Source of the DNA: Cyclobacteriaceae bacterium
GTDB lineage: Bacteria; Bacteroidota; Bacteroidia; Cytophagales; Cyclobacteriaceae
Length of the DNA stretch: 10,417 nucleotides
Reading direction: 5' to 3'
NCBI GenBank assembly: GCA_030589835.1
Contig: JAUUZS010000092.1
Span: forward strand, 1 to 10,417
The position numbers and the translations under genes were made by a program. The notes below the pieces were generated by a model. The model saw only the letters and a list, made by a program, of their open reading frames with translations. It did not search any database and was not told the origin of the DNA. Of the stretch, positions 1 to 10,417 are shown one piece after another (the stretch's first letter is position 1; every line of letters starts with the position of its first letter).

Positions 1-726
1 CCACATAATTTCGTCAATTTGATCAAAATTAATGTCCACAACCGGAGACATATGACATCCACGTGCACCAGGATCATCTTCTTCAATTACTAAGTCCCAT
101 CGGCTTTGCATGTTTTTATTCCATGCTTGTAGCCCCATTCTTCTATATGTGCCTTGAGCTGTTATCAATACTGGCTCCCCTTTGCTGTAACCCCCAAAAA
201 TGAAATTGCGAAATGTTTGACTGTTAGTTTCCCCATAAGAAGATTTTTTCCATGGCCATTGCCCAATACTTTCTCCAGTATTCGAATCAAGGGCTTCCAG
301 GCGCAAGTACTTATAACTTAATAGATGAACCGAATCTATATTGTTAACAAAATAGATTTCATCAACTCCATCATTGTCTAAGTCGAATGGGAAAACTGGC
401 GTAAACCAAATGCCATTAATAGTACTGGTAGTCAATTCTTTTTTCCACAATAATTGCCCTTCCAATGTAAACAATGCAAATTTTAATTTATCGGTAGGTG
501 GATAAAACATTTCTATCCAGGGATCAATTTCTTTATCTGCTGAGTATACCATCAAAATAGCCGTCTTTCCCTTAGCAATTTGAACCGGGACTGCACGCAG
601 TTTTCCAACTTTTGAACCAAGAGAAAATTCAAGGATGGTTTCTAAACCATTCGTTTTTTCACTTTGTCCGTATGAAGTGTAAAATAAAATGCTGATTATA
701 ATAAATGAGCCAATTGATTTTTTCAT
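1..726 (-). CDS. Secreted FG-GAP / rhamnogalacturonan-lyase-like beta-propeller protein, partial (N-terminal 242 codons)
   Basis: The frame is open from an ATG at 724-726 to the left edge, so the C-terminal part is missing. I translated this region by hand. A signal peptide is clear: K2-K3, a hydrophobic stretch to about residue 18, then S-Y-G-Q with predicted cleavage near residue 20. The mature part shows beta-propeller-like blades. Two Asp-rich FG-GAP-type calcium loops are visible: residues 115-123 (D-L-D-N-D-G-V-D-E) and residues 231-239 (D-I-N-F-D-Q-I-D-E). Between them is an A-L-D-x-x-T-G turn near 145-151. From memory of the family, this layout resembles the FG-GAP propellers of Bacteroidota annotated as rhamnogalacturonan-lyase-like. 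Whether it cleaves or only binds polysaccharide cannot be decided from this half. It is the last gene of the block, 62 bp after the chimeric ORF. Exported propeller is secure; lyase activity is uncertain. Confidence 0.75.
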   Translation of the reverse strand, partial: MKKSIGSFIIISILFYTSYGQSEKTNGLETILEFSLGSKVGKLRAVPVQIAKGKTAILMVYSADKEIDPWIEMFYPPTDKLKFALFTLEGQLLWKKELTTSTINGIWFTPVFPFDLDNDGVDEIYFVNNIDSVHLLSYKYLRLEALDSNTGESIGQWPWKKSSYGETNSQTFRNFIFGGYSKGEPVLITAQGTYRRMGLQAWNKNMQSRWDLVIEEDDPGARGCHMSPVVDINFDQIDEIMW

Positions 727-788: not shown

Positions 789-1535
789 TCAAAACTCTAA
801 CTCAAATGACCTTCGATATTTTTTCAGCTTTTCCAGATAACCTTCCATGTCTAGCAATTGCCCGCCATAAAATTCAGAATAAGATACTTCCGATGCACGA
901 TTCCCCCTTAGATCCACACCGTAAAACTCTGAACCATGTCGATTAATGATAAAAGGATTATTTACATCAAAAGTAGATTTGGTAATCGTTGCATGAGGTA
1001 CATCGACCGCTGTAGAATTGATACCTGATGTTACAATTTTTACATTGTCCAGGATAATTCCAACATTTTGTGCTGTTGACTGGATTCCCCAGGACAAAAC
1101 ACCGACCGTCCCATTTTTAATGGTCACGGTTCCTTCTCCTTTAACAATCGGTATCCCTTCAATTGGCTTTGATTGGGAGACATTTTCCGTATAATCAAAA
1201 AAAGCACTATGAGCACGTTCATACAGGTGATCATTGTGGCCCATGGAACGCGTATTTTCAACAGTATAGCCATTCATAGTTCGTTTACTGTGAATGACAG
1301 GATTGAAAACCCCGATCATCTGAGGCATTTTATTAAACTGCATCCCTTCAACAATACCTTGCTTAATTCTTTGTGCTCTCCTCTCCCGGGAATCAACATC
1401 ATCCCACTGCCTGGCAAAACTTTTTATCATTAGGTTTGCCTCATCCTCCGTCCAATTGTTTCCAACACACAACATGGTATCCTGACCATAACTGTTGATA
1501 CTTATAAATGCAAAAAATATTAATAATCTCTTCAT
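789..1535 (-). CDS. Chimeric secreted ORF: esterase N-terminus + beta-helix middle + GH20-like C-terminal tail
   Basis: This is an intact 248-codon frame starting 9 bp after the beta-helix gene. Residues 1-18 are a signal peptide ending in S-Y-G-Q. Residues about 21-95 resemble, from memory, the region before the catalytic domain in Bacteroidota acetylxylan-esterase-like alpha/beta hydrolases: W-T-E-D-E-A, R-R-A-Q-R-I-K-Q-G-I, N-P-V-I-H-S-K-R, N-G-Y-T-V-E-N. The hydrolase domain that should follow is absent. Residues about 97-226 instead match residues about 262-398 of the neighbouring 739-residue protein (shared A-F-F-D-Y-T-E, L-S-W-G-I-Q-S, S-E-F-x-G-G-Q), with five residues lost near 143. 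Residues 226-248 match the last 23 residues of the GH20-like protein at 9047, 18 of 23 identical. No catalytic domain is complete, so it is probably an inactive fusion, although the frame is fully open. The three-part reading is secure for parts 2 and 3, which can be compared inside the window. Confidence 0.8.
   Translation of the reverse strand: MKRLLIFFAFISINSYGQDTMLCVGNNWTEDEANLMIKSFARQWDDVDSRERRAQRIKQGIVEGMQFNKMPQMIGVFNPVIHSKRTMNGYTVENTRSMGHNDHLYERAHSAFFDYTENVSQSKPIEGIPIVKGEGTVTIKNGTVGVLSWGIQSTAQNVGIILDNVKIVTSGINSTAVDVPHATITKSTFDVNNPFIINRHGSEFYGVDLRGNRASEVSYSEFYGGQLLDMEGYLEKLKKYRRSFELEF
833..871 (-). repeat. Copy 1 of dispersed repeat: GH20-like 3' end inside the chimeric ORF
   Basis: These 39 bases match 9091-9129 at 34 of 39 positions in the same orientation and the same reading frame. 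The flanking bases towards the 3' end still align at protein level to the stop codon, while the upstream side switches to beta-helix-like sequence. It marks the second junction of the chimera. Confidence 0.75.
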
Positions 1536-1544
1536 GATAATGTT

Positions 1545-3764
1545 TTATCGAACATTTACAGTCAGTTCTGTATTTTGATTGAGCAACGTGACTTCCTTTT
1601 TCCTTCCAACTTTTACTGTATATGGAGCTAGTTCGGTTTTTTTCAAACCGTCTATCAAGTACTGCGGCAATTCCATACTTACTCTGCCCTGTTCGGACGA
1701 TTTTGAAATGTTCACTTCCTGTCCATTTCTATCATATATTTTGACTTCTACACCCACAATCGGTTTTTGTTTTTTATCCTTTACACTAATATCCAAAGTC
1801 CAATAAACAGAATAACTGTGCTGTTCACCTTCTAATTCCAAGTTCATTTCTTCAAGAATATTAGACCTGAATTCTATATTGGTAGCGATGTGATTTTTGC
1901 CCCACCCCATTCTGAACGGTTTGAAACTATCTTCGGTACCAGGGGCTTTAATGATAGTGTTATTATAGATTTTTGTTCCATTTGCTGAACCATACCGAGA
2001 GGCAATCCAGGCTGCAGGCACATTGGTCGTAATATGGTTATCATAAAATTGTCCTCCAAAATATTTCGGGCCTCCACAGATATAAAATGCCGCTGCTATC
2101 ACTTTTGAAGAAGACTCCACTTTGTTCACAACGATCTCGTTCCCATAAACATAATTTTCCCCAGCCCTAGCACTGTAAAAAACCCCCCATGCCATGGGAA
2201 TGTATTTTTTAGGTTTGGGATAGTTTTTTGCTGTGATGTAGATCTTGTTGTCGTATATCCTATTGCCTACGGAAGCCCTTGGAGAGCCTGGTTTTGCACC
2301 ATAATCTCCGAGCCTTATTGCGGCGGTGCTGTATTCTTCATTTCCATATTCACAAGTTGGTGGCGATGTTTCTATTTTGAAAATGTTATTAAATACTTCA
2401 GTGTGCCTGCTCACATAAATACCTGATCCCTGTTTCGGTTCGAACCGGTTATTGTATATTTTAGTGCTATCACCTGTTCCCATAATACTATAATGGTTGG
2501 TCACAGTTTGATGGTTTATAAAAAGGTTATCATGAATAAGCGACTTTTTCCCTTTGATTGACAAACAGCCTTGGCCACCGTTAAATTCCGAATTCGAAAT
2601 TTCGGTGGCATTGTTGCCTCTAATAATCACAGAGCAAAGACCAACATGTCGCTGGATAAGAAACGGCATATCAACATCAAACTTGCAATTGTTAATGCGT
2701 GCATAGGGTATATCCACTGCGGCAGAACTTATACCGCTTGTTTTAATTTTTAAATTTTCAAGAATGACTTTCACATTTGTAGCAGAAGACTGAATGCCCC
2801 ATGAGAGTATCCCTACAGCAGCGCTTTCGATAGTGCCATTTTTAATAATGATTGTTCCTTTGCCACTTACTTGTGGTAACGAAGACAAGGGCTTTCCTGT
2901 TTTCATATCTTCTGTATAATCGAAAAAAGCAGGAATAGTTGGTGGCCGAGACTCCATAATCACATGATCATAGTGAGCTAATGGTGTTGTTTTTTCTATA
3001 ATACTGATGCCTGCATCCATCGCAGGGCGGATATCAATCTCGTCAACCAGACAATCTGAGTCAGCTTTAACCCGTACTCGGTATTTTCCGGCAGGTAAAT
3101 TAGTGAGGTGTGCGTAAACAAATCCTCCGCCCAATCGGGGACTTCTTCTCTCAACAGGACAGCTTTGCTTTGCACCATCCCCATATTCCGTTATGCACTT
3201 TACTTCATTGCCATTTTCATCTTCCACATACACACTCACTTTCATTTCATCATCGGGGTACTTCTTCATATCGTGGTAATATCTTCCTGTAATACCACAC
3301 ATGGCAAAATAGGAGCGGTTGGCAACCGGCAGGTTAATGTACGGGGATGTTATTTCATCACCGCTCTGTAGGCTCAATAATTTTTCGCCAAGAAACACAT
3401 GCACATCAGCGGTGTTTTCCACTTTCGCACCCGGGGCTTTCGAAACATCCCAGCCTTTCAATCCTTCTTCGAATCCGGAATTTGGAATATGTTCGTAATT
3501 TCCGTCAGCATAAGTAATGGTATACCCATTGAGATCAAGGGTAATGTCCTTACCTAGAAAAATAGTACTTTTTTCACTGCTAATATCGCTTGTCAACGTA
3601 TAGGTAGTTCCTTCCTTACCATAATAGCCCGGTTGGCTTATGGCTACAACATTTTCTGATAATGTTTTGTGATCATATTTTGTATATTGTGCATATACTT
3701 TTGGAGTCACGAGCAATACTTGCGAAAAAATAAAACTGGAAATGTATATTATTGTACTTTTCAT
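1545..3764 (-). CDS. Secreted right-handed beta-helix protein with inserted carbohydrate-binding-like domain and C-terminal Ig-like domain
   Basis: Signal peptide 1-25 ends V-Y-A-Q. Residues 53-88 look like the first coil of a pectate-lyase-like beta-helix (T-L-T-S-D-I, then I-T-L-D-L-N-G-Y-T-I). The helix is then interrupted by a beta-rich block at about 94-247. That block starts with N-S-G-F-E-E-G-L-K-G-W, the typical opening of a CBM4/9/22-type jelly roll. The helix resumes near 265 and runs to about 640 with many N-N-x-F and I-Y-N-N / I-Y-D-N-K asparagine-ladder turns typical of PbH1 repeats. Residues 652-739 form an Ig-like or carboxypeptidase-regulatory-like domain (K-P-I-V-G-V-E-V-K-I-Y-D). 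The fold family includes polysaccharide lyases, epimerases and hydrolases, so an extracellular polysaccharide substrate is likely, but I cannot assign catalytic residues. It lies 43 bp downstream of the transglutaminase-like gene. The middle is duplicated in the chimeric ORF that follows. Confidence 0.85.
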   Translation of the reverse strand: MKSTIIYISSFIFSQVLLVTPKVYAQYTKYDHKTLSENVVAISQPGYYGKEGTTYTLTSDISSEKSTIFLGKDITLDLNGYTITYADGNYEHIPNSGFEEGLKGWDVSKAPGAKVENTADVHVFLGEKLLSLQSGDEITSPYINLPVANRSYFAMCGITGRYYHDMKKYPDDEMKVSVYVEDENGNEVKCITEYGDGAKQSCPVERRSPRLGGGFVYAHLTNLPAGKYRVRVKADSDCLVDEIDIRPAMDAGISIIEKTTPLAHYDHVIMESRPPTIPAFFDYTEDMKTGKPLSSLPQVSGKGTIIIKNGTIESAAVGILSWGIQSSATNVKVILENLKIKTSGISSAAVDIPYARINNCKFDVDMPFLIQRHVGLCSVIIRGNNATEISNSEFNGGQGCLSIKGKKSLIHDNLFINHQTVTNHYSIMGTGDSTKIYNNRFEPKQGSGIYVSRHTEVFNNIFKIETSPPTCEYGNEEYSTAAIRLGDYGAKPGSPRASVGNRIYDNKIYITAKNYPKPKKYIPMAWGVFYSARAGENYVYGNEIVVNKVESSSKVIAAAFYICGGPKYFGGQFYDNHITTNVPAAWIASRYGSANGTKIYNNTIIKAPGTEDSFKPFRMGWGKNHIATNIEFRSNILEEMNLELEGEQHSYSVYWTLDISVKDKKQKPIVGVEVKIYDRNGQEVNISKSSEQGRVSMELPQYLIDGLKKTELAPYTVKVGRKKEVTLLNQNTELTVNVR

Positions 3765-3807: not shown

Positions 3808-4623
3808 TTATACCGCATATTTATTATTCCTTTTCAAAAAATCAAATCCTAATGGCGCCATTAATAGCAATGGAATAATCCAAATTGCCCAATAAGAAAA
3901 ATGCTCAAACTTATTATCCACAGTATAAATATTTTTATATTTCCCAAAAATCTCAACAATAAAATCAGTGGTGTATGGATCTACAGCATCGGGGTAATAC
4001 AAATCCGCCATTTTACTATAGGGCTTTCTGGCAAGTTCAGGGTTTGCCTGAACTGCGGCAGTATCATAGGGAACAACAATGCCATAATCCGGATCAAGAA
4101 TATATGTTGTAGAATCATTGAGCTCTGCTCTTACTACAACATGTCTTCCTCCCAAATCCATTAATTCTGCTTTCATACCGTTCTCCATCAAAACGCCTTT
4201 CACAATAATCGAATGAGCTGAGCATAAACCCACCCCTCTTTCCAAGTTCTTTTTATAATTGCTAAATTCATAACGTTCATACATTTTGGGGTTGACGTAC
4301 GAGGCAAAAAACAACAAATAGTTTTCCCAGATGGGCACCCTCAAATAGTATTTATCAATTCCCTTGCTTTTCCAATAATGGGCAAAGCCATTGTTAACTA
4401 CTTTGTTAACTCTAATGGCAAATTCTACATTGGATTCACCTTCCCTTCTTTCTAACAACTCTAATATCTCTGGGTACTCTATGGTAATATCGTTAATTCT
4501 GTTCCTTAATGTCACCTCTTCTGTATAGATTTCAGGGTTTCTCATCGTTTTAAAAAGACCTGATATATTTATACCGATTAATATCAATCCCAATGCAAAA
4601 AGTATTCTTTTTAAAATTTTCAT
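3808..4623 (-). CDS. Membrane-anchored transglutaminase-like (papain-fold) protein
   Basis: This 271-residue protein has a hydrophobic segment at each end: about residues 6-23 after K2-K5-R6, and about 243-260 before a basic tail (K-R-N-N-K). The middle is therefore probably outside the cytoplasm, held by two membrane anchors. The core carries the transglutaminase-like Cys-His-Asp arrangement. C134 lies in G-V-G-L-C-S-A-H-S, H161 in G-G-R-H-V-V-V, and D177 in I-L-D-P-D-Y-G. The spacing fits the superfamily, which includes cysteine proteases, peptidoglycan or peptide amidases and cross-linking enzymes. The triad looks intact, so activity is plausible. Its presence among polysaccharide enzymes is unusual; a role on a peptide- or amide-bearing glycan, or in processing neighbouring exported proteins, is only inference. 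The ATG is followed directly by the anchor segment, which supports this start. Confidence 0.82.
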   Translation of the reverse strand: MKILKRILFALGLILIGINISGLFKTMRNPEIYTEEVTLRNRINDITIEYPEILELLERREGESNVEFAIRVNKVVNNGFAHYWKSKGIDKYYLRVPIWENYLLFFASYVNPKMYERYEFSNYKKNLERGVGLCSAHSIIVKGVLMENGMKAELMDLGGRHVVVRAELNDSTTYILDPDYGIVVPYDTAAVQANPELARKPYSKMADLYYPDAVDPYTTDFIVEIFGKYKNIYTVDNKFEHFSYWAIWIIPLLLMAPLGFDFLKRNNKYAV

Positions 4624-4727: not shown

Positions 4728-5090
4728 TTAATAATCAAATTTTATTATATAGACTTGCCTGCTTCCGGAGTGTATTGAATTAAAACCAACCATATCTCCA
4801 TGAGGACTCCATCTGCAATGAATGTCACAGCGCCATCCTTTAGTGTATTCATCTGGTTGATAAAATCTTCCCAGTGGTAATATTGCTTCACTTTTCATAT
4901 CCATTAAGTAAATTTTTTGTTCCCTGTTTTTTGTTGGATAAGTATCTGTGATCATCCATTTGCCGTCAGGAGAAAAAGTGCCATGCCTATCATAGTCAAG
5001 TAGTCCTTTACCCAACCTGTAATAATTGTTCTCCCCAACAGAGAATAATATATGAGCCATCTGTTTTGATTCATATTTTGCGGTGATCAT
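4728..5090 (-). pseudogene. C-terminal remnant of an oligogalacturonate-lyase-like (PD40) beta-propeller protein
   Basis: Only about 120 codons remain. The motifs belong to the last blades of a PD40/TolB-like propeller seen, from memory, in Bacteroidota and Planctomycetes proteins annotated as oligogalacturonate-lyase-like: R-H-G-T-F-S-P-D-G-K-W at 35-45, T-D-T-Y-P at 48-52, R-C-D-I-H-C-R-W-S at 87-95, and S-G-S-R-Q-V-Y-I at 108-115. The full family is about 400 residues, so the N-terminal two thirds, including the signal peptide, is absent. Upstream in the same frame there are only eight sense codons before a TGA. A different ATG at 5113-5115, 18 bp after the previous gene, opens M-K-S-F-L and stops at once. 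Deleting one T from the T6 run (plus-strand A6 at 5102-5107) would join that start to this frame. A single-domain fragment is unlikely to fold as a working enzyme, so I treat it as a decayed gene. Expression as a short peptide cannot be excluded. Confidence 0.7.
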
Positions 5091-9046: not shown

Positions 9047-10417
9047 CTAAAATTCAAGTTGAAATGATTGTCTGTACTCTATTAATTGTTCCAAATAACC
9101 TTCCATATCCAGCAATTGCTCGTCATAAATCAGATAACTCATATCTGCCGTCCTATTGGCAAAATGGCGTGAGCGATCCATTTTGTAAAAATATTGTTTG
9201 TCAGGAGTCGACATACCTTTAGGGAGTCTTGTCTTCTCCCATATTGTCGTTAAGTTATTGATGGTTTTTTCTCTTCTTGTCAGGCTATTTTCAATAAGTT
9301 GCTCGGCTTTCAACAAACTATTATATGCCGCTTGTCTATCTAAAAAGGCATTGCGGTGCGCTTCTTTTATTGTATCTTCCAATTTTGAAAGATCTAGATA
9401 GGTAAGACAAGTATGATCGATCAATTCTGCTATGGATCGATACAATTCAAAATCGTAACTATGGTCCAAGTCCAATATTTTATTGGTTTCGATAATTTGT
9501 AGAGCTCTGGCCATTTTCTCACGTTGCTTTTCTGATCGGGTGACCATATCTTTATATTCCGAGTTCCAGTACTCATCATATTCTATATACTGTCCTCTTG
9601 GCAAATCGGGCAAATGGGTTTTACCGATTATTCCGTGATGCCATACATTTCTTTCAAAAGTTGCGGCATAATAATAAGCACCATCATTCAATAAATCGTA
9701 TAGCTCCTTCATATCAACTACTTCCTTTCCGTAGTAGTTATGGAAAAATGAATCTTCAAATTCTTCTAATCCTGGTGCCCCTCCATTCCAAGAATATTGT
9801 GCCGATACAACAAAACTTAGCATCCACATTTGATTATGCAGACCTGAATCATCCCACGAGGTGTTGATCATCCCATCAAAAACTTTCGATTGTGAACTAT
9901 TAGAAACCAAATTATAAGAGTTTGTCATACTCCCTTCGATTTTCTTTCCTCCACGTTTTCTATAATGATAGGGAAGAAACAACGGCTCCAGTCCAGGATT
10001 GGGGTCATACATAAATACCTCAAATCCCATTGATTTTGATTCTTTTGCATATTTAAAATCTGGGGTTTCATATTTGTAACTTTCTATAAGTACCAAGTCA
10101 GTATCAGGTTTTATATTTTTAATAGGTGACCTGTTTTGCTTCCATCCCATTGGCCTTTCCCATAGCATTACTTTTCTGGATTTTTTAAGATGTTTGGCCG
10201 CCTTGCTGGCAAATAAATGATACAATCCGCTTTTGCCAATTTCCTCAGCCTTTATTTTGCATTCCTTGCATTGTCCTAATTCAAATGTTTCGTCAGATCC
10301 AATATGGATATATTTTGATCCAGGCGTAGCTTCAATCGCTTCATCCCAAAGGTCAAACAGCAGGTCATAAGTTCCCTCTTTTAAAGGACAAAACTCCCAA
10401 TCCGAATCTGACACTTC
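9047..10417 (-). CDS. GH20-type beta-N-acetylhexosaminidase-like protein, partial (C-terminal part)
   Basis: The frame is open to the right edge and enters the window as E-V-S-D-S-D-W-E-F; the GTG at 10412-10414 is an internal Val codon, not a start. The GH20 signature is clear: Y-I-H-I-G-S-D-E-T, with the catalytic Asp-Glu pair encoded at 10292-10294 and 10289-10291 (GH20 usually has G-G-D-E; here G-S-D-E). A C-K-E-C pair follows, then V-M-L-W-E-R-P and I-N-T-S-W-D-D-S-G, matching the later barrel strands and aromatic subsite positions of the family. GH20 enzymes use the substrate's N-acetyl group to cleave terminal HexNAc. The last third, after about 9650, is a long charged helical domain outside the catalytic barrel. 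Its final 23 residues reappear at the end of the chimeric ORF at 789. The signal peptide and N-terminal domain lie outside the window. Confidence 0.85.
   Translation of the reverse strand, partial: EVSDSDWEFCPLKEGTYDLLFDLWDEAIEATPGSKYIHIGSDETFELGQCKECKIKAEEIGKSGLYHLFASKAAKHLKKSRKVMLWERPMGWKQNRSPIKNIKPDTDLVLIESYKYETPDFKYAKESKSMGFEVFMYDPNPGLEPLFLPYHYRKRGGKKIEGSMTNSYNLVSNSSQSKVFDGMINTSWDDSGLHNQMWMLSFVVSAQYSWNGGAPGLEEFEDSFFHNYYGKEVVDMKELYDLLNDGAYYYAATFERNVWHHGIIGKTHLPDLPRGQYIEYDEYWNSEYKDMVTRSEKQREKMARALQIIETNKILDLDHSYDFELYRSIAELIDHTCLTYLDLSKLEDTIKEAHRNAFLDRQAAYNSLLKAEQLIENSLTRREKTINNLTTIWEKTRLPKGMSTPDKQYFYKMDRSRHFANRTADMSYLIYDEQLLDMEGYLEQLIEYRQSFQLEF
9091..9129 (-). repeat. Copy 2 of dispersed repeat: 3' end of the GH20-like gene
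   Basis: This is the intact-context copy of the segment at 833-871. It codes for part of the C-terminal helical tail (Y-D-E-Q-L-L-D-M-E-G-Y-L-E). The two copies lie about 8.2 kb apart in direct orientation. Confidence 0.75.

Follow-up and report, generated by a model that had tools for sequence, protein, structure and literature searches.

A three-part open reading frame in a Bacteroidota gene row: a probable deletion remnant of esterase, beta-helix and GH20-type genes

When a short, apparently exported open reading frame (ORF) consists of recognisable pieces of other genes, is it a product of decay that is still open, a new secreted protein, or an artefact? The question is raised by a frame in the window, by which we mean the whole stretch of 10,417 nt analysed here. 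This frame (Table 1) joins pieces of three identifiable full-length genes at two places, both in frame, and it contains neither internal stops nor frameshifts. We consider it probable that this ORF, which is either recent or kept open, was left over as a chimera when deletions struck an operon-like row of genes, and that it is not an enzyme.

Three sources of one frame

The N-terminal part belongs to the AXE1/GCE-type esterases. P0006, which is assigned to this type by Pfam (PF05448, PF22244), is identical to the mosaic ORF at 82/94 positions and P0007 at 79/94, and this homology stops at residue 94-95. Homology to beta-helix-type proteins covers residues 91/92-226, with 74% identity to P0003 in the large protein search and 65-73% to eight genomic beta-helix copies; it amounts to about 135 of the ~740 residues of these proteins, with both ends absent. 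The last 22 residues align with the C-terminus of GH20-type proteins only. Each segment matches its own family, as proposed in an earlier note made from the sequence alone, which had set the esterase-like part at residues ~1-95, the beta-helix middle at ~97-226 and the GH20-like tail at 226-248. The open frame with a signal peptide described there is present as a 248-aa frame with an ATG start, with a signal peptide recognised by eye.

The alpha/beta-hydrolase core is absent from the ORF, as judged from the end of the homology at 94-95 and from the lack of a Pfam match. Homology does not extend over most of the beta-helix solenoid, and the GH20 catalytic domain is absent, the tail alone being aligned. 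A Pfam/NCBIfam search of the 248-aa ORF returned no family. Lacking the hydrolase core and retaining just an inner stretch of the beta-helix, the product is presumably not an enzyme.

Table 1. Position of the mosaic ORF, its parts and breakpoints, and related genes in the window
Feature	Position	Strand	Remarks
Mosaic ORF	789..1535	-	248 aa, begins with ATG; N-terminus looks like a signal peptide by eye
Part 1, AXE1/GCE-type esterase, residues 1-94	1254..1535	-	full-length relatives P0006, P0007 (384 aa)
Part 2, residues 95-226, inside of ~740-aa beta-helix-type protein	858..1253	-	protein alignment
Part 3, residues 227-248, GH20-type C-terminal tail	792..857	-	17/22 identical to the window's GH20-type gene
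Join 1, codons V92-E93-N94	1254..1262	-	V-E common to esterases (..GYxVENI..) and most beta-helix relatives (..VExTHPMG..)
Join 2, F222-Y-G-G-Q226	858..872	-	TTTATGRCGRGCAA sequence, which the GH20-type gene of the window has too
15-nt in-frame loss after G142	1109..1112	-	between near-repeats seen in relatives
Full-length part-2 paralog, beta-helix-type	1545..3764	-	stop 9 bp before mosaic start
GH20-type protein, part-3 paralog, cut by window end	9047..10417	-	GH20 Pfam domains in L005, L006 relatives
C-terminal stub of TolB/PD40-like protein	4728..5090	-	last ~119 of ~412 residues
RGL11 lyase-like gene, downstream of mosaic, cut by window end	1..726	-	family search

The large protein search returned 32 matches, of which two, P0001 and P0002, span the whole query and the other 30 cover 15-54% of it. 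The same fusion is carried by P0001 with one difference (V137M) and by P0002 with three (R96H, S97P, F248Y). Both clusters bear the source tag lgn, which we read as Logan assemblies, and P0002 lies on a contig of 5,512 bp. At residues 96-97 H-P is found in P0002 and in 9/13 beta-helix relatives; the window mosaic has RS, which therefore looks derived. The presence of both joins in two further variants, which may stem from the window's own sample, makes a one-off assembly error unlikely.

The earlier note had suggested looking for the same fusion in related genomes. It was encountered in these two protein clusters, but no match joining the parts was found in genome sets of 393, 341, 28, 6 and 6, which overlap partly and of which the 393- and 341-genome sets are samples of larger orders. 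A few genome alignments reach up to ~10 residues beyond a join, within longer frames; a scan of genome contigs gave 14 loci, each matching one part only, and several short frames contain the esterase part alone, e.g. G440:C647 (168 aa) and G447:C61 (130 aa). The whole architecture in many distant genomes would, according to the note, have marked an ordinary domain family; it did not appear in any of these sets. Membership of the whole ORF in a known family was rejected, as neither Pfam nor NCBIfam gave a match. Among the papers listed by general literature searches, none deals with this fusion by its title or the opening of its abstract (weak evidence of absence).

The joins and the surrounding gene row

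At the position of join 1, which in the mosaic ORF reads GTTGAAAA, VEN is present in 13/13 aligned esterases. The word GTTGAAA stands at this place in 2/6 esterase genes (L067, L046) and 1/5 beta-helix genes (L006), and the beta-helix genes of L002 and L001 are one base off it. At join 2, TTTATGRCGRGCAA fits both the mosaic ORF and the GH20-type gene of the window, the L002 beta-helix gene having TTTATGGAGGGCAG. The first join had been placed at 1241-1253 and has to be moved just upstream, to 1262-1254; the second, at Q226 (860-858), falls inside the range of 858-865 given for it. Both keep the frame, as had been stated, but they are accompanied by a third in-frame event, the loss of 15 nt: the five residues missing after G142 are present in 13/13 compared beta-helix relatives, and in L083 and L047 the near-identical words AAAAAACGG/AAAAAATGG lie 15 nt apart at the site of the loss. 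All three events are in frame, for which the chance would be 1/27 if the frame were free. Judging from the relatives, the breakpoints appear to fall where the parents have short sequence in common, the exact shared words being read from the DNA of relatives and not of the donors themselves.

The window contains eight main frames (at least 120 aa), all on the minus strand and separated by gaps of 9-104 bp. Transcription runs from a GH20-type gene (cut) through an esterase (PF00756) and a 628-aa protein of no clear family to a 120-aa propeller stub, and then on through a 271-aa protein and a 739-aa beta-helix-type protein to the 248-aa mosaic and, last, an RGL11-like lyase (cut). The stub at 4728-5090 is 61-65% identical to two relatives and is, by its sequence, a second remnant in this row. 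The labels GH20 and beta-helix for the window genes are putative, since they rest on relatives: the GH20-type gene is 48-57% identical to L005 and L006 genes bearing GH20 domains (PF00728/PF02838), itself giving a sub-threshold DUF4838 match only and no GH20 Pfam, and in the case of the beta-helix protein some relatives are annotated with PF13229, the window copy being without such a match. The 271-aa protein (3808-4623, minus strand), transglutaminase-like by our own label, lies directly upstream of the beta-helix gene, and the same arrangement is seen in L001:60-3042 and L006:22-2666.

Paralogs of parts 2 and 3 do occur in the window, as the earlier note pointed out, but their divergence is too great for immediate donors. 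The DNA identity of the mosaic middle to gene 1545-3764 is 68% over 160 bp (E 2e-10) and that of the tail to gene 9047-10414 is 85% over 48 bp (E 8e-9), which makes these genes cousins rather than recent donors.

The ancestral gene order was sought in the surroundings of nine beta-helix copies outside the window: L001 (two), L002, L003, L004, L005/L047 (two), L006 and L083. At two loci, L005/L047 and L006, a GH20 gene lies downstream of the beta-helix gene on the same strand, which is the order of parts 2 and 3 of the mosaic. The two genes are separated in L006 by a sulfatase and in L005/L047 by two short frames, FG-GAP-like by eye, one of which was searched against Pfam and gave no match. No P0006-type esterase was found around the nine copies in the stretches fetched; L002 has a distant AXE1-like gene (~24%) in the orientation opposite to the beta-helix gene. 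Since a GH20 gene downstream is seen and an esterase upstream is not, a template can be pointed to for the second deletion but not for the first. The origin suggested earlier, by deletions in an array of esterase, beta-helix and GH20 genes, is in keeping with the short sequence shared at the joins in some relatives and with the beta-helix to GH20 order, but an esterase preceding a beta-helix gene was not seen around the nine copies. Separately, two ~740-aa beta-helix paralogs stand three genes apart on one strand in L005:50-8307 and L001:859-9890.

Decay and selection among the relatives

Two scans, one of which scored the best 4 candidates per genome, gave at least 22 loci at least 60% identical to P0006. 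Among those 22, the gene is intact in 10, runs off a contig end in 8 and is damaged in 4. The esterase of G336 has a stop and that of G001:C314 a frame break. In G375:C22 (L080:5649-6188, plus strand) a single in-frame deletion, from about residue 45 to 280, has left the first ~45 and the last ~105 residues; a further open frame, which looks GTPase-like by eye, follows 2 bp after the end of this gene. The AXE1/GCE-type esterase of G405:C36 (L079:8321-8992, minus strand) has lost two internal stretches in frame, and the first of these deletions starts at the VEN motif, as join 1 of the mosaic does. Judged from the intact L073, a 7-bp word marks each deletion, with one mismatch at the first and exact (ATGTGGA) at the second; in the relative L075 fewer bases are shared.

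A second esterase and beta-helix mosaic, separate from the window ORF, is P0013 (347 aa). It resembles the AXE1-type esterases P0089/P0094 in its first ~67 residues and in a further piece, DYRVEKLI, at the motif that corresponds to VENI of P0006. Beta-helix sequence comes next, from which 37 residues are missing. Over residues 232-307 the best description is a reading in the +1 frame of the L002 beta-helix gene, with 72% identity, and P0013 is therefore a pseudogene, although it is catalogued as a protein. The VEN/VEK breakpoint is found in three genes (the mosaic ORF, G405 and P0013), which are few cases, noticed post hoc. By hand count, 9/12 events are in frame over the mosaic ORF, P0013, G405, G375 and G001:C314 (binomial p 0.004 vs 1/3), and 3/4 in the genome-found loci alone; the tally of 9/12 is not used as evidence because the mosaic ORF and P0013 were found as open frames. 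A general version for the polysaccharide-degradation gene rows of these Bacteroidota, in which short shared words just ahead of the esterase core (VEN/VEK) are hit by deletions time and again, the frame tends to survive, and decaying operons repeatedly yield new exported mosaics, with the frame held by selection against polarity or for the product, is unlikely in our opinion.

The comparison of dN/dS along the parts and the prediction of structure, both advised in the earlier note, gave the following picture. With a self-written branch codon model, omega on the saturated branch of the mosaic middle was 0.02 vs 0.07 in the background (p 0.09), and omega = 1 was rejected (p 5e-6); on the N-part branch, likewise saturated, it was elevated to 0.33 vs 0.075 (p 0.012), and omega = 1 was not rejected (p 0.24). 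Where the model left omega free rather than at 1, the branches carry ~1.4-12 neutral substitutions per codon, and the branch omegas therefore probably record mostly the time before fusion. At 2/31 esterase columns that are otherwise invariant the mosaic deviates (R50 instead of W, N88 instead of D), which is within the range of intact esterases (0-3 of 29-32) and does not separate it from them. The structure models gave no confident fold: mean pLDDT was 36 with alignment A1, which may hold misaligned esterase rows, and 38 with A3, in which the esterase rows were cut to ~60 residues. No residue reached pLDDT 70 in either model, a weak result without a parent control, and in the Foldseek search with the A3 model 0/44 matches listed had E <= 0.001.

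Remnant, new protein or artefact

If the ORF is a deletion remnant, the ancestor would have been a row in which esterase, beta-helix and GH20 genes followed one another on the same strand, and from which two large stretches may have been lost by deletion between short shared sequences, with a 15-nt slip inside the beta-helix part. The product would probably still be translated and exported. The frame could still be open because the deletions are recent, or because an out-of-frame remnant in an operon would impose polarity on the downstream RGL11-like gene. In favour of this origin we count the three families with clean part boundaries, joins at sequence shared in some relatives, the one-strand gene row, the junctions in P0001 and P0002, the lack of a joined match in the genomes searched, and the decay of the esterase kin, P0013 and 4728-5090. 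Counted against it are the open frame with three in-frame events, a middle part without relaxation, an invariant-column count like that of intact esterases, the esterase not seen upstream of a beta-helix gene, and the occurrence of exact join-1 words in some relatives only.

The same in-frame events, the frame open in three sequence variants, the low omega of the middle part on its own branch and the position in a row of polysaccharide-degradation-type genes would all suit a new secreted protein, in which a beta-helix stretch placed behind an esterase export signal serves as a small glycan-binding protein or decoy and the frame is selected. We regard this as unlikely, though the foremost of the alternatives: the fusion is seen in near-identical variants only and in none of the other genomes searched, the beta-helix part is without both ends and without five residues kept in 13/13 relatives, the window has RS where P0002 and 9/13 relatives have HP, neither model (mean pLDDT 36 and 38) has a confident fold, and the sister mosaic P0013 is broken. 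An artefact of assembly or amplification, in which words common to the three pieces led to their being linked, would agree with the short shared sequence at the joins, but it is very improbable given that both joins recur in two other protein clusters with 1 and 3 aa differences (possibly from the window's own sample) and that the DNA identity of the pieces to the paralogs in the window is just 68% and 85%. We give still less credit, next to none, to an ordinary conserved multi-domain family that is mosaic in looks only; a clean start and a signal-peptide-like N-terminus are what such a family would have, but no Pfam or NCBIfam family is matched, 2/32 protein matches span the query while the rest cover 15-54%, and genome matches cover one part each.

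As a probable remnant, the mosaic illustrates one way in which three known genes can supply the pieces of an orphan-like exported ORF, the breakpoints, the allelic variants and relatives of every parent being visible together, and it cautions against naming such ORFs after one of their parts. If the keeping of the frame proves systematic, it would become testable whether decaying operons give rise to new secreted proteins; of all the observations, the VEN/VEK breakpoint that recurs in three separate genes is the one that might lead to something new.

The mosaic shares with AXE1/GCE-type esterases its residues 1-94 and a similar N-terminus, but is without their alpha/beta-hydrolase core, including the GGSGGG stretch (203 of P0006), which we take to be the nucleophile elbow. 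With Bacteroidota beta-helix-type proteins it shares homology from residue 91 to 226, where an inner stretch of these proteins aligns; unlike them it has ~135/~740 residues, no ends and a 5-residue loss. With GH20-type proteins it has in common the C-terminal tail, matched by its last 22 residues, but not the catalytic domain. Amiri et al. are said to have described, in 2003, orphan ORFs of Rickettsia derived from gene remnants. Rickettsia orphan ORFs made of gene remnants are also the subject of Davids et al. 2003 (PMC2447293). The likeness is that short open frames turn out to be debris of formerly working genes and not new genes, whereas the mosaic differs in that its sources are identifiable, its relatives belong to Bacteroidota, and the pieces of three genes stand in one frame.
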